Origin: Calothrix sp. CSU_2_0
GTDB lineage: Bacteria; Cyanobacteriota; Cyanobacteriia; Cyanobacteriales; Nostocaceae
NCBI GenBank assembly: GCA_012034595.1
Contig: JAAUPE010000008.1
Coordinates: 1 to 64,000, forward strand
Length of the DNA stretch: 64,000 nt
Direction: 5' to 3'
Below, in pieces: positions 32,598-40,363 of the stretch (position 1 is its first letter; every line of letters begins with the position of its first letter). Made by a program: the position numbers and the translations under genes. The notes under the pieces are model-generated. The model was given only the letters and a program-made list of their open reading frames with translations, did not search any database and had not been told where the DNA came from.

Positions 32598-34484
32598 CTA
32601 TTGTAACGGTAATGTCACCACACAAGCCGTTCCTACACCAACTTCACTGGTAATGTTGATAGTTCCTTGATGCAAGTCTACACATTTTTTGACGACAACT
32701 AATCCTAATCCCGTACCGGAAATACTGCGGACATTTTTACCACGATGAAATGGTTCAAAAAGTTGCTTTTGAGTGGTAGGAGGAATACCAATACCCCAAT
32801 CTTGAACTTGGAGTATAACTTTATCGGGTTCAAATTCTAGCGCTAAATGCACATTTCCCCCGTCAGGAGAATATTTAATTGCATTGGAGAGCAAATTAGC
32901 AAGAATTGAGCGTAGTAACCTTTCATCTACCCATCCAGGAACAGCTTTACCTTGACGAGTAAAAGTAAGTTTGTGTATTTCTCCTGCACTCAGTCGTAGT
33001 TCTTCAATAAAAGAACCACAAAAAGATTCTAAATCTAACTGCTTGGGATTAAATTCTAATTTTCCAGCTTCGGCTCGATTAATAGTTAAAATATCGTCCA
33101 ACATTTGTACCATATTTTTTACAGAACCCTGAATTCTCTGCAAATTCCTCAGTCGCTTAGAAGAGTTATCCCACTCATCCCGACAGTCTTCTAATAACTG
33201 CGCTGCTGCTAAAGCTGTACTCAAGGGGGTACGAAACTCGTGGGAAGCCATTGAGAAGAAGCGTGTTTTGAGGGCACTAAGTTCTTTTTCTCGCTCTAGT
33301 GCTAGCCGAATTTCGTCTAGTCGCTTGCGTTCTGTAATATCTGCAATCACAGCCACTAATCCATTGATATTATTCTCAGTATCGGATAATGGAGCGGCGG
33401 AAAAAATAATATTTATAGGAGTACCATCTTTTTTATGGCGCTGCAATTCGACTCTGCTGTAGGTCGTACCCTGTAATATACTTTGTTGGAGGGTATTATA
33501 TTCTTCCATCTGGTCGTCTAAAAAAATTGGGCTGGGAGAGTCTATCACCTCCGCTTCTGTCCAACCGAACATCCGTTCCGCAGCTGGGTTCCAAATTTTG
33601 ACATTACCTGCTAAATCTAGGGTAAAAATAGCGCGAGGTGAAGCTGTTATCAAAGCTTGTAGTGCTGCTTCTGTGCGTTGACGTTCGGCAATTTCTGCCC
33701 TGAGAAAAGTATTTGCTTGTGCTAATTCTTGAGTACGCTGTTGAACGCGAAGTTCCAGTTCCGCATTAAATATTTGTAATTGTTTATAAAGTTCTGACTG
33801 TTGAATTGCGATCGCAACTTGGGTTGCTAGTTGCTTCATTAATTCAACTTCCCAGGATTCCCAGTTACGAGGATGACTGCACTGATGGGCAATCAATAAT
33901 CCCCATAAATAAGGAGTTTGCCGATCGACTTCGCGATTTTCTTGTAAAATTGGTACTACTAATTTTGCCTTAACACCAAACTGTTTTAAAAAATCTGCCA
34001 AGCATGGCTCTACATCTGCCTGTTCAACATTGGTAATGGCACGGGTTTTCCCCAATGAGTATGCTTGATGAAATTCTTCAGGAAATACTTCTTCGGGAAA
34101 CGTGTCTCCCAAAATTTTTGTGTACTCAGGTAAGACTGTTTCTGTAATTGCACTTCCTGTTCCATCCTCCCAAATCTGATAAATCAACACCCGATCTGCT
34201 TGGAGAAAATCCTGTACCCCGGCAACTGTAGTCGCTAGAACCTCCTCTAAATCCAAAGATTTGCGGATATGTTGAGCAATTTTGTTTACTAATCTTTCTC
34301 GTTCGGTTTGCTGTCGTAGTATTCCTTCTGCTTGTTGTCGTTTAGTTACTTCCTGGCAGAGAAGATAGTAAACTACTGCCAAGGCAATAATTATTGAACA
34401 TACAAAGATGGGGGCAAGATTGAGAGTGCTAATTGTATCGATGTTTAGCATGTTGGCGATACCTGCTACATAAAATCTAGACAA
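32598..34484 (-). CDS. ccaS: CcaS-like cyanobacteriochrome histidine kinase (TM-GAF-PAS-HK)
   Basis: GAF with ADRVLIYQIWEDGTGSAITETV, EEVFPEEFHQAY, VEPCLADFLKQFGVKAKLVVPI; kinase LKTRFFSMASHEFRTPLSTALAAAQLLE; close to Synechocystis/Nostoc CcaS as recalled. Confidence 0.8.
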   Translation of the reverse strand: MSRFYVAGIANMLNIDTISTLNLAPIFVCSIIIALAVVYYLLCQEVTKRQQAEGILRQQTERERLVNKIAQHIRKSLDLEEVLATTVAGVQDFLQADRVLIYQIWEDGTGSAITETVLPEYTKILGDTFPEEVFPEEFHQAYSLGKTRAITNVEQADVEPCLADFLKQFGVKAKLVVPILQENREVDRQTPYLWGLLIAHQCSHPRNWESWEVELMKQLATQVAIAIQQSELYKQLQIFNAELELRVQQRTQELAQANTFLRAEIAERQRTEAALQALITASPRAIFTLDLAGNVKIWNPAAERMFGWTEAEVIDSPSPIFLDDQMEEYNTLQQSILQGTTYSRVELQRHKKDGTPINIIFSAAPLSDTENNINGLVAVIADITERKRLDEIRLALEREKELSALKTRFFSMASHEFRTPLSTALAAAQLLEDCRDEWDNSSKRLRNLQRIQGSVKNMVQMLDDILTINRAEAGKLEFNPKQLDLESFCGSFIEELRLSAGEIHKLTFTRQGKAVPGWVDERLLRSILANLLSNAIKYSPDGGNVHLALEFEPDKVILQVQDWGIGIPPTTQKQLFEPFHRGKNVRSISGTGLGLVVVKKCVDLHQGTINITSEVGVGTACVVTLPLQ

Positions 34485-34567: not shown

Positions 34568-34942
34568 TTAGCAACGTTTATCAAACCGAGTGTATAAACC
34601 GCCATATTTAAACCAGTATTGCTTCACTTTGTTGCAAGGTGTATGCAAACTTGCTTTGCCACGATAAAGAAAAACTTGACGATGATCGCCCATCCAAATC
34701 TTATCAATTGTTTCTACGGAAATAAGACTTCCCCCCAAAGCGACAATACAAGCGGTAAATCTCTCAACGCAAGAATAATCTATGGTTTCAAATATAAAAA
34801 AGTTACCCTCACAAATTAAATGACGACTTCTGATCCAACATTTGAGTTTTTTCTCCGCTTCTGGTGGCAACATTTTGTGCTGCGAATAATTTGAATTTAA
34901 TATTTTCGATGATTCTGTTTCAGATAATGTGAGCATTGTCAA
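34568..34942 (-). CDS. cpeR: CpeR-like phycoerythrin regulator
   Basis: PPEAEKKLKCWIRSRHLICEGNFFIFETIDYS...VALGGSLISVETIDKIWMGDHRQVFLYRGKASLHTP...KYGG. Confidence 0.8.
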   Translation of the reverse strand: MTMLTLSETESSKILNSNYSQHKMLPPEAEKKLKCWIRSRHLICEGNFFIFETIDYSCVERFTACIVALGGSLISVETIDKIWMGDHRQVFLYRGKASLHTPCNKVKQYWFKYGGLYTRFDKRC

Positions 34943-35122: not shown

Positions 35123-35878
35123 TTAAACAATTTCCGTGATGCTAATTATTTTGCCGGAAGTACGATGAATCCGTTGAATTTGCGGGGTCATATTGTCACC
35201 AGCAACGGTATATGTAGTAGTGGCGAGACGATTTGAACCACCAAATTTGGAACCCTGAACCACAATCTTGAACATTTTTTTGTTTGCTTCACCGGAACCC
35301 CCTAAATTAAAGGATGCGGGTGTAACTTTATTCGCACTATTAGTTGCGACTGCATAAACAAGCTGGGAAGCTTTGACAGCACTACTTACCTGTGCCGCTC
35401 CGCGATCGAGACTAAACATGCGGTTATAACCAACTTGCTTTTGCCCTACCTGGGTGCTGTTTCCGCGATAGTAGGGGACAATGTTTTCTCCAAATGCTTT
35501 TTGATATTCCTCACTGTCAAGATAAGAATCAATTTCAGCTTCGTAACCAAATTCGATACAGCGACGGATATGTTCGGAAATTTCCTCTTGACTTTGGGGA
35601 GCGCGACCTAATAAATGCTTGAAATTTAATTCAATAAAGCGATAGGGAGCGCATTTCTCAAAATAGCGACTGCGATAGAAGCTTGATTTTGCGACTTCCC
35701 GAACAAAATCCCGCACAGTGATTGTGCGATCGCATAATCTTGATTCAGCACTTATTAAGCGTTCACTATCCATGACATGGGGATTACCTAAAACCTGTTT
35801 GTAAACTCCGCGAATTACTGACTGGATATCATCTGTAGGACTTGTTGCCCAGAGTTCATATGTATAAGTTGTTGCCAT
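35123..35878 (-). CDS. cpeD: Phycobilisome rod linker, phycoerythrin-type (CpeD-like), linker plus CpcD domains
   Basis: VIRGVYKQVLGNPHVMDSERLISAESRLCDRTITVRDFVREVAKSSFYRSRYFEKCAPYRFIELNFKHLLGRAP; C-terminal CpcD domain MFKIVVQGSK...TPQIQRIHRTSGKIISITEI. Confidence 0.75.
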   Translation of the reverse strand: MATTYTYELWATSPTDDIQSVIRGVYKQVLGNPHVMDSERLISAESRLCDRTITVRDFVREVAKSSFYRSRYFEKCAPYRFIELNFKHLLGRAPQSQEEISEHIRRCIEFGYEAEIDSYLDSEEYQKAFGENIVPYYRGNSTQVGQKQVGYNRMFSLDRGAAQVSSAVKASQLVYAVATNSANKVTPASFNLGGSGEANKKMFKIVVQGSKFGGSNRLATTTYTVAGDNMTPQIQRIHRTSGKIISITEIV

Positions 35879-36278: not shown

Positions 36279-37142
36279 CTAACTCACGGGGGTGATACTA
36301 GCAATTACGCCACCTTGTTGGTGAATCCTTTGATACTCTTGGGATAGTTTATCAAAGGGTACGAGATAGACTTGGTTACCACGTCGAAACCGAGAAATTC
36401 GGTTAACTTGATTTGCTCGGTAGGATGTCACCTCAATGCGATAGACCTTGCCATTTTCGCTTGCACCCACACCATGAATAGTTCTCGAACCCAAAGCTGG
36501 ATTACGGAATGTTGCACCGGCACTTGCTGGTGAAATTACAGGGGTTGGTGTACTTTGAATAACTAGACTATTTAATTTTGGTTGTTTGCCTGCCAAGTCT
36601 CCTTTAAGACTACTGCTGGAAGCTCCCCGCACCATTTGGAAAAGGTGAGTAAATTGCACCATATTCTGACAAGCTTCGGTTTTGTAACCTCGAATATAGG
36701 GTACAAAGTTTTCTCCAAAGGTACTTTGGTATTCGTCGCTGTCGATATAGGAGTCAATGTCAGCTGCAAAACCTTTGTTATCAAGGATATTGCTGTGCAT
36801 TCTCATCTCTTCCAAGTCGATGGGAGTACGACCAAGAAAATGTCTAAAGTTCAACTCAATTGCCCGGTAACGAGCGCAACTGGTAAAAAATCGAGAACAG
36901 TACAAATCTGATTTCCCAACCTGACGCACAAATTCGCGAATGCTAATTTCACCGAGTTTTAACTGTGACTCTGGCACAGCTAGTCGTTCGCTGTCCATTA
37001 CATAGGCATTGCCTAAAACTTGCCTGTAAACGGCTTTGATGATGGTTTCCTTCTCTTCTGTTGAAGAACCAGATACCCACTCAACTGGTGGGGTTTCATC
37101 AAACAGGCTGATACCTAAACGTGAACTTGGTCCAAAAGCCAT
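36279..37142 (-). CDS. cpeC: Phycobilisome rod linker, phycoerythrin-type (CpeC-like)
   Basis: SRLGISLFDETPPVEWVSGSSTEEKETIIKAVYRQVLGNAYVMDSERLAVPESQLKLGEISIREFVRQVGKSDLY...CARYRAIELNFRHFLGRTP; C-terminal CpcD domain. Confidence 0.85.
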   Translation of the reverse strand: MAFGPSSRLGISLFDETPPVEWVSGSSTEEKETIIKAVYRQVLGNAYVMDSERLAVPESQLKLGEISIREFVRQVGKSDLYCSRFFTSCARYRAIELNFRHFLGRTPIDLEEMRMHSNILDNKGFAADIDSYIDSDEYQSTFGENFVPYIRGYKTEACQNMVQFTHLFQMVRGASSSSLKGDLAGKQPKLNSLVIQSTPTPVISPASAGATFRNPALGSRTIHGVGASENGKVYRIEVTSYRANQVNRISRFRRGNQVYLVPFDKLSQEYQRIHQQGGVIASITPVS

Positions 37143-37234
37143 TGAATGAAAATCTCCTAATTCAGATATGGGGTTATTTAGAAACCCATATAAGATAGAG
37201 AATTACATGTCAAAAGTAAGGAATATGGTCAGGA

Positions 37235-37256
37235 AGTTGTAAAGAAATCGGAAAGA
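37235..37256 (-). promoter_or_regulatory. Candidate CcaR-binding G-box upstream of cpeC
   Basis: Minus strand CTTTCCGATTTCTTTACAACTT: direct repeat of the CTTTNCNATTT half-site (second half 10/11) ~93 bp upstream of the cpeC start. Confidence 0.65.
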
Positions 37257-37381
37257 TTCTGTATTATTGAGATATTGTTACTTTTCGTAATTTTTAGCAA
37301 TTAACCTTTAGAACTGATTTTACAAAGCTCTAGATGTGGAGAATATAAATATATATGGATATATGTTGATAAAACAATGTT

Positions 37382-38059
37382 ATGCGAATTCTTTTGGTTG
37401 AAGACGATGTACGTCTGGCTGATACTTTAGCTGAAGCTCTGACCGACCAACGTTATATAGTTGATGTGGTGACGGATGGGGAAGCTGGGTGGCATCAAGC
37501 GAAAATGCTGGATTACGATTTGCTGCTGCTGGATGTGATGTTACCGGAGCTTGATGGAATTAGTTTATGCCATCGATTGCGATCGCACAACTACAGTATG
37601 CCTGTTTTGATGTTAACTGCCCGTGATACGGTTAGCGATAAGATTACTGGATTAGATGCAGGGGCAGATGATTATGTGGTCAAACCTGTGGATTTGCAAG
37701 AGTTGTTTGCCCGGATTCGAGCTTTGCTACGTCGGGGTCATGCTTCATCTCCACCTATTCTCGAATGGGGAAATTTACGTCTCAATCCCAGCACTTATGA
37801 GGTGAGTTACAGGGATATTCTATTGCATTTGACCCCAAAGGAATATGGACTTTTGGAATTGCTGTTGCGAAATGGTCGTCGTGTGTTGAGTCGGAGTGTG
37901 ATTATTGAGCATGTTTGGTCGTTAGAATCTCCCCCGGAAGAACATGCTGTGAAGGTTCATATTAGAAGTTTGCGTCAAAAGCTCAAAGCTGTGGGTTCTG
38001 CTGAAGATTTGATTGAGACTGTTCACGGGATGGGTTATCGTCTCAAACAATTGGTGTGA
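37382..38059 (+). CDS. ccaR: OmpR-family response regulator, CcaR-like
   Basis: MRILLVEDDVRLADTLAEALTDQ...LDVMLPELDGI...GLDAGADDYVVKPVDLQELFARIRALLRRG...SRSVIIEHVWSLESPPEEHAVKVHIRSLRQKLK. Confidence 0.75.
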   Translation: MRILLVEDDVRLADTLAEALTDQRYIVDVVTDGEAGWHQAKMLDYDLLLLDVMLPELDGISLCHRLRSHNYSMPVLMLTARDTVSDKITGLDAGADDYVVKPVDLQELFARIRALLRRGHASSPPILEWGNLRLNPSTYEVSYRDILLHLTPKEYGLLELLLRNGRRVLSRSVIIEHVWSLESPPEEHAVKVHIRSLRQKLKAVGSAEDLIETVHGMGYRLKQLV

Positions 38060-38181: not shown

Positions 38182-38892
38182 CTAATGTACCAATCCTGCG
38201 CGTAAAGCCCGAACCGCAGCTTGAGTGCGATCGGCAACACAAAGTTTACTCAAAATACCCCGAACGTGGGTTTTCACAGTGCCGACAGTCAGGTAAAGTC
38301 TTTTAGCGATTTCCGCGTTATCACAACCCGCAACAATTAACTCTAAAACTTCCTTCTCCCGTTGAGTTAAAGGGAAACTTTCGATAGTTTTTTCCAATTC
38401 TGGCTCTAAACCTTCAATCATCACCCTTTTCGAGCTTGTGCTGTTGATATCGTCTTGCCGTACTTGTTGGAGTACAATATCTGCGATCGCAGGATCGATC
38501 CACGAGCTACCTGTAGAGGTTATTTTAACTGCGTTAATTAAGCGATCGCTTTCGATGTCCTTCATGCAGTAAGAATCTGCTCCAGCACCAAAGGCAGCTA
38601 GTACAGTTTCCTCGCTGTTTTGCATGGTTAAAATCAGCAGATTAGTTGTAAAGTCTTGGGTTTCTTGCTGATATTGCCTATATTTGCGTGTTAGTTCAAT
38701 CCCATCCATGTCAGGCAAACCAATATCAATAGTAGCCACATCTGGCTTCATCTTCTTGAGTAGCTCAAATCCATCTGTACCATTGGAGGCTTCTCCGATA
38801 ATCTTGATTTCCGGCTCGGTTTGTAAAGCAGCCCGCAAGCCCATTCTGGTAAGGTTATGGTCTTCAATTACAATCACCTTAATCTCGCTCAT
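38182..38892 (-). CDS. NarL/LuxR-family response regulator
   Basis: VIEDHNLTRMGLRAALQ...TIDIGLPDMDGIEL...LTQREKEVLELIVAGCDNAEIAKRLYLTVGTVKTHVRGILSKL. Confidence 0.95.
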   Translation of the reverse strand: MSEIKVIVIEDHNLTRMGLRAALQTEPEIKIIGEASNGTDGFELLKKMKPDVATIDIGLPDMDGIELTRKYRQYQQETQDFTTNLLILTMQNSEETVLAAFGAGADSYCMKDIESDRLINAVKITSTGSSWIDPAIADIVLQQVRQDDINSTSSKRVMIEGLEPELEKTIESFPLTQREKEVLELIVAGCDNAEIAKRLYLTVGTVKTHVRGILSKLCVADRTQAAVRALRAGLVH

Positions 38893-39256
38893 GGCTGTTT
38901 ATCTCTCTCCAGATTTTATATCTAATAAAGTAAAGTACAGGCTAAAATAAGATTCCTATTTTATTGGTAAAGTTATACAGAAAACACTATTGTTAAGATT
39001 TTTAAGTTAATTACATCTACTATAAGTAGGAAAAAAGCTTCTTGTCAAATTGCTAGAAATAAAAGTTCACTAAGTACATCTTGTGAGAATAAGTTTTGCA
39101 CATCTTTCGTTAGATAGATTTTAGATTTAAGAAAACTAGACTTATGAATCTAGCCTTGAGACAGAGAAAAGGATATTTTAATGAAATACGTTGTATGCAA
39201 ATAGGATTAGCATTATCAATGTATATGATGAATGTTTATTTATCTTCAATAACGTC

Positions 39257-40363
39257 ATGTATCTTCAAAAATCTGTCAAAAAAGATAAAATTCTTGTTGT
39301 TGATGATATTTTTGAAAATTTACTTCTACTAGAAGCTGTTTTAGAAGCGGAAGGTTACGAAGTTAGTTTGATAGAAGATAGTAAAACTGGTTTGAGAATG
39401 GTTGAGGATTTGTTACCGGATTTAATTCTGTTAGATGTAATGATGCCAGAATTGGATGGTTATGAATTTACTCGTCGTGTTCGTCAAAATAACAATCTAC
39501 CATACATTCCCATTTTGCTAATTACTGCTCATGGGCAATCAAGTCTTGTTGAGGGACTTGATGCGGGTGCTGATGACTTTATTCGCAAACCATTCGATCC
39601 GGAGGAGTTACATGCAAGGGTTCGCTCTTTATTGCGTCTCAAACATAGTATAGATGAACGTGACCAGATGGCGAACTTACGGGAGGATTTTGTTTCTCGT
39701 TTTACTCACGATTTAAGAACACCTTTGGTTGCCGCAAATCGAGTGTTAAAGCTGATGCAAGAAGGAATCTTTTTTTCGGTGACACCGGAATCTTTGGATA
39801 TTTTTAAAACGATGATTAGTAGTAATGAAGATTTACTAACGATGGTTAATAATTTACTCGAAGTATATCGTCATGAGGCTGGTAGTAAAAGTTTAAAAAT
39901 TGCTCCTTTTGATATTGAAAATTTAGTTAGTGAAGTCACACAAGAATTAAAACCTTTGGCAGTAGAGAAAGGGTTAGTTATCAATTTGGAGATATTCGGA
40001 AATCATACTGGCAGCAAAAGTTTAATTTCGGGCGATCGCATTGAATTACGACGGGTAATTACAAACCTTTTAGGTAATGCAATTAAGTTTACGGATGAAG
40101 GTTCGGTAAATATCCGTTTAAACTTAAATCCAGATATCATAAGTATTGAGATTCAGGATACAGGGGCTGGAATTTCTAGTCGAGACCAAGCAATGTTATT
40201 TGAGCGTTTTCGTTCTGGTAAACATCAAGGTTCTGGTAGCGGTTTAGGTTTATATTTATCACGCTACATTATTGAAGCTCATCAAGGTTCGATTGATGTG
40301 CATTCTGAGCCTGGAAAGGGTAGTAAATTTACTGTCAATTTACCTCATGTTGTTCATAGTTAA
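39257..40363 (+). CDS. Hybrid protein: receiver domain plus histidine kinase
   Basis: ILVVDDIFENLLLLEAVL...LDVMMPELDGYEF; FVSRFTHDLRTPLVAANRVL; GSGSGLGLYLSRYI. Confidence 0.92.
   Translation: MYLQKSVKKDKILVVDDIFENLLLLEAVLEAEGYEVSLIEDSKTGLRMVEDLLPDLILLDVMMPELDGYEFTRRVRQNNNLPYIPILLITAHGQSSLVEGLDAGADDFIRKPFDPEELHARVRSLLRLKHSIDERDQMANLREDFVSRFTHDLRTPLVAANRVLKLMQEGIFFSVTPESLDIFKTMISSNEDLLTMVNNLLEVYRHEAGSKSLKIAPFDIENLVSEVTQELKPLAVEKGLVINLEIFGNHTGSKSLISGDRIELRRVITNLLGNAIKFTDEGSVNIRLNLNPDIISIEIQDTGAGISSRDQAMLFERFRSGKHQGSGSGLGLYLSRYIIEAHQGSIDVHSEPGKGSKFTVNLPHVVHS

Follow-up and report, generated by a model that had tools for sequence, protein, structure and literature searches.

The G-box upstream of cpeC in Calothrix sp. 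CSU_2_0 lies within a longer conserved promoter element

The CcaS/CcaR pair is in wide use as an optogenetic switch in bacteria. Its DNA site, the G-box, is where a regulator controlled by green light turns on genes for antenna pigments in cyanobacteria. Regulators of the OmpR/PhoB type occupy tandem half-sites head-to-tail at intervals of one turn, and at Pho boxes of PhoB class II promoters tandem 11-bp half-sites in this arrangement end approximately 10 bp before the −10 hexamer and replace the −35 element. In Nostoc punctiforme, Hirose et al. reportedly placed the cpeC–cpcG2–cpeR1 operon under CcaS/CcaR control in 2010, in the study that defined the G-box, with a G-box upstream of cpeC. 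The CcaR operator has been described as a 22-mer or as one marked G-box (PMC8256508; PMC6629627), the Synechocystis G-box being printed as CTTTCCGATTTCTTTACGATTT (PMC8256508). One paper uses the plural 'CcaR operators'.

We analyzed a stretch of 64,000 nucleotides of the Calothrix sp. CSU_2_0 genome (contig JAAUPE010000008.1, positions 1 to 64,000), hereafter the window. The promoter studied here resembles that of Synechocystis sp. PCC 6803 cpcG2 (cpcL) by its 22-bp direct repeat (20/22 positions identical to the Synechocystis G-box), its divergent ccaR and its predicted green/red CcaS, whereas its target operon starts with cpeC. The operon order, the regulator pair and the position of the G-box before cpeC are also those reported for the Nostoc punctiforme operon.

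The G-box repeat and its gene neighborhood

The 22-bp direct repeat CTTTCCGATTTCTTTACAACTT occupies positions 37234–37255 of the minus strand and faces cpeC, with 91 bp between the repeat and the cpeC ATG (37142). The initial annotation located it upstream of cpeC and spelled it correctly as CTTTCCGATTT-CTTTACAACTT but placed it one base too high (37235–37256) and at a distance of 93 bp. Half-site 1 (CTTTCCGATTT, 37245–37255, minus strand) matches CTTTNCNATTT exactly and is nearly invariant in 25 non-redundant promoters, and half-site 2 (CTTTACAACTT, 37234–37244, minus strand; orthologue consensus CTTTACNRTTT) matches at 10/11 positions with C for T at position 9, in agreement with the quality originally claimed for the pair. 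Together they constitute the published 22-bp G-box and, relative to two copies of CTTTNCNATTT without spacer, contain one mismatch in 18 specified positions.

Across the entire genome of 7,437,768 bases, the window site is the only sequence to match this double pattern with no more than one mismatch, and a reversed-pattern control yielded zero matches at the same threshold in the same 7.44-Mb genome. Since real and control sites are about equally frequent at two mismatches (3 versus 5), background begins at that level and the window site alone stands out. Scanning for single half-sites was rejected as useless, as it returns 216 exact matches genome-wide. The G-box observation is thus confirmed as real; the sequence points to a site of a known kind to which CcaR would bind.

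The locus is a CcaS/CcaR cluster in which ccaR is divergent from cpeC–cpcL–cpeR–ccaS, a phycobilisome linker operon lying downstream of the G-box. On the minus strand, cpeC (36279–37142) encodes a phycoerythrin rod linker with PBS_linker_poly and CpcD domains and is followed by a gene for a cpcL (cpcG2)-type rod linker (35123–35878; PBS_linker_poly), whose best NCBIfam match is CpcG2, below the cut-off. The cpeR-like activator gene (34568–34942, minus strand) is named by synteny with the known cpeC–cpcG2–cpeR1 operon; it has no match in Pfam or NCBIfam and shares stretches of 54–84% identity with equivalent clusters of other genomes. The ccaS gene (32598–34484, minus strand) encodes a cyanobacteriochrome histidine kinase with a GAF-PAS-HisKA-HATPase architecture. 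Its GAF domain best matches PDB 8k9o (labelled histidine kinase; 6e-51) and RcaE 7ckv (3e-45) and conserves the bilin-binding Cys of the AHQC motif. We predict the kinase to be a green/red-type cyanobacteriochrome, its GAF domain being closest to solved RcaE-type GAF domains.

On the plus strand, ccaR (37382–38059) encodes an OmpR/PhoB-type response regulator (Response_reg, Trans_reg_C) with up to 91% identity to other site-bearing CcaR proteins, and our tree puts this product in the site-bearing CcaR clade, as its original designation implied. Directly after ccaR, the region 38182–40363 encodes a LuxR/NarL-type response regulator and a receiver–histidine kinase protein. Elsewhere in the genome, a pair of genes at G000:C205 reads as CpeB and CpeA, which we take to be the phycoerythrin genes, and G000:C226:17508–17959 holds what may be a broken gene, a phycobiliprotein-like frame split in two that contains an internal TGA. 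The repeat, the CcaR-clade neighbor, the kinase, the linker operon and the conservation described below place this promoter among the CcaS/CcaR G-box promoters of chromatic acclimation types CA1/CA2/CA7.

Conservation of a longer element in orthologous promoters

We searched 391 genomes of the class for CcaR and extracted the loci of the best matches for promoter comparison. Absence of the repeat from orthologous promoters, the outcome named at the outset as contradicting the G-box reading, was not what we found: the repeat occurs with at most two mismatches upstream of ccaR in 37 of the 41 CcaR-clade loci and in degenerate form in two further loci, and is absent at the same threshold from the 16 more distantly related CcaR homologues (0/16). 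Its strand in the clade loci is always divergent, facing the antenna operon, and the orientation toward cpeC noted by the initial annotation in the shared cpeC/ccaR intergenic region is therefore the one kept in orthologous promoters. With profiles that each exclude the locus being scored, leave-one-out scores exceed 26 bits in 38/41 clade loci and reach at most −18.5 in the 16 relatives outside the clade. In a tree of 56 regulators, one group (support 98/94) comprises every one of the 38 site-bearing rows plus two more. In one of these two exceptions (G125), ccaR is on another contig and the antenna operon retains the complete element; G089 has a CcaR of the clade but no site at its locus. 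Since orthologous promoters share descent, this conservation proves constraint and not the identity of the binding protein.

Alignment of the 25 non-redundant promoters revealed a conserved block of approximately 57 bp, of which the published 22-mer is only the distal half. The initial reading of the repeat as a CcaR G-box held in its computable parts but missed this longer element. Half-site-like unit 3 (CCTGACCATAT, 37223–37233, minus strand; orthologue consensus YCTKACCNRTT) has its AC exactly 11 bp past that of unit 2, was also recovered in genomes outside profile building, and departs from the half-site consensus at three positions in the window. Half-site-like unit 4 (CCTTACTTTTG, head CYTTAC, 37211–37221, minus strand) lies 12 bp past unit 3, offsets 38 and 39 being A and C, respectively, in 24/25 promoters. 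A predicted extended −10 (TGt-AATTCT, 37199–37207, minus strand; consensus TGnnAttnT, or TATGnnAttnT) follows at a fixed place; its offsets 52 and 56, the key positions, hold A and T, respectively, in 24/25 promoters. The half-site heads thus fall at offsets 0, 11, 22 and 34, which sets them on about one helix face, and the −10 hexamer at 51–56. Units 3–4 are well kept in the window and poor in Synechocystis-like genomes (G226 and G267: TCTCCCCCTTT, TCTTCTG).

This layout is akin to that of a Pho box, as tandem half-sites reach into the −35 position at about one-turn steps, the arrangement of PhoB-type class II promoters, and end near the −10; the last specific base (offset 39) lies 11 bp before the −10 hexamer, close to pho-box geometry. 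It differs from a Pho box (CTGTCAT) by its CTTTNCNATTT half-sites, four units, last step of 12 bp and extended −10. We rejected a TTGACA at 37208–37213 of the window as a −35 box, its GACA being unconserved and no good −10 lying at 17 bp.

Upstream of the G-box, a further conserved element (about AAATATTRCRRAAnnTnAAnATTTATT; 37269–37298, minus strand) is found about 14–43 bp before the repeat, at a constant distance from the G-box but not from ccaR, and conservation is low beyond about +60 and before −45. The upstream element bears a likeness to TTRCGAAATGTAACA in distant taxa; inspected by eye as an RpaB HLR1-like site, the match is weak, with 3–4 mismatches of 16 in the window. Two promoters (L153 and L189, from G306 and G074) each contain two G-box-like repeats approximately 70–80 bp apart, of which the operon-proximal one carries the full four-unit element, and a third (L186, from G191) has a weaker second repeat.

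Specificity of the profile

The window site has an E-value of 1.6e-14 in its own genome with a sequence-only profile of the 61 bp that includes the window, the next best match being at 0.25, and its leave-one-out score is 72 bits. When 224 same-family genomes were scanned with it, no genome had more than one strong site. In 29/29 other loci inspected, 26 of which belong to genomes not used for profile building, the site has ccaR as its neighbor, reading away from it. The published 22-mer searched with at most one mismatch across the 391 genomes gave about 52 matches versus about 16 for the reversed control, indicating that a good part of the unlinked matches are due to chance. The extension downstream of the 22-mer, scored alone, ranges from 16.5 to 41.6 in the ccaR-linked loci inspected and is below −18 at 21 unlinked 22-mer matches; it separates CcaR-linked sites from chance matches.

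A candidate second target at about 1501–1522 of L105/L106 has a one-mismatch G-box but an extension score of −26 and was rejected. It precedes a gene for a putative substrate-binding lipoprotein in two genomes of the same genus, and the sequence that follows it resembles the element loosely. Low-scoring profile hits within a single genus of the Synechocystis family were likewise discarded, as they proved to be short repeats that read GKEIGKEIG-like in a coding frame. These 11–12-bp coding repeats (ATTTCCTTACCA...) weakly mimic the profile in several genomes of that genus (L247, L248, L250–L254 and L256–L258).

Alternative readings and proposed mechanism

A fortuitous likeness within AT-rich intergenic DNA could draw on the abundance of single half-sites, but genome uniqueness, conservation, orientation and linkage all speak against it, and we consider this explanation already refuted by the orthologue comparison. 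That the site mainly serves ccaR itself, through autoregulation of the divergent gene, would fit its location between the two divergent genes, in the intergenic region that they share, with the ccaR ATG 126 bp away. We deem this highly improbable: the spacing to ccaR ranges between 77 and 514 bp whereas that to the divergent −10 is constant, and where ccaR has relocated, the antenna operon has kept the element.

A more serious contender, which we nevertheless regard as unlikely, is that the 22-bp G-box alone binds CcaR, as one dimer, and that the downstream stretch is core promoter or the site of another factor. The description of the 22-mer as the operator in published work (PMC8256508; PMC6629627) and the degeneracy of units 3–4 in Synechocystis-like genomes agree with such an arrangement. 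It is opposed by the TTAC head, which recurs in units 3 and 4 at steps of 11 and 12 bp across promoters of many families, and by the absence of TTGACA from the expected −35 position (offsets 28–33) in the 25 promoters.

Building on the observed sites, their phasing, conservation and uniqueness, and the gene neighbors, we think it likely that the repeat forms the distal half of a CcaR-dependent cpeC–cpcL–cpeR(–ccaS) promoter at which two CcaR~P dimers occupy four half-sites in a PhoB-like manner. Under green light, CcaS would phosphorylate CcaR, as taken from work on relatives, and CcaR~P dimers would bind the half-sites head-to-tail, approximately one helical turn apart, the first loading on the near-perfect pair formed by units 1–2 (the G-box) and the second on the weaker pair formed by units 3–4, adjoining RNA polymerase. 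Two dimers would be the simplest reading of the array. Units 3–4 would replace the −35 element in front of the extended −10, so that transcription would require a contact between CcaR and RNA polymerase like the one that PhoB makes at pho promoters; occupancy of all four half-sites, this contact and the transcription start are predicted from the layout. CpeR from the operon would then switch on cpeBA elsewhere. Under red light, CcaR would be dephosphorylated and the operon silent.

Units 3–4 are poor in Synechocystis-like genomes, yet CcaR activates the Synechocystis promoter, and four good half-sites are thus not absolutely required. We lean toward the view that the true CcaR operator may be the four-unit array (11-, 11- and 12-bp steps) together with the extended −10 and the fixed upstream element, units 3–4 acting as the activating pair and the G-box as the loading pair. 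If so, a search restricted to the 22-mer would miss the array and collect chance matches. Compared with the papers that describe the 22-mer or mark one G-box (PMC8256508; PMC6629627), the four-unit layout may be undescribed.

The profile of the element finds likely CcaR targets and rejects chance matches, and the element offers a guide to the bases worth retaining in promoter re-engineering. For the Calothrix genome, it predicts direct control of a single operon by CcaR. Across many genera, the fixed 57-bp element offers a testable explanation of how CcaR would activate transcription without a −35 box.
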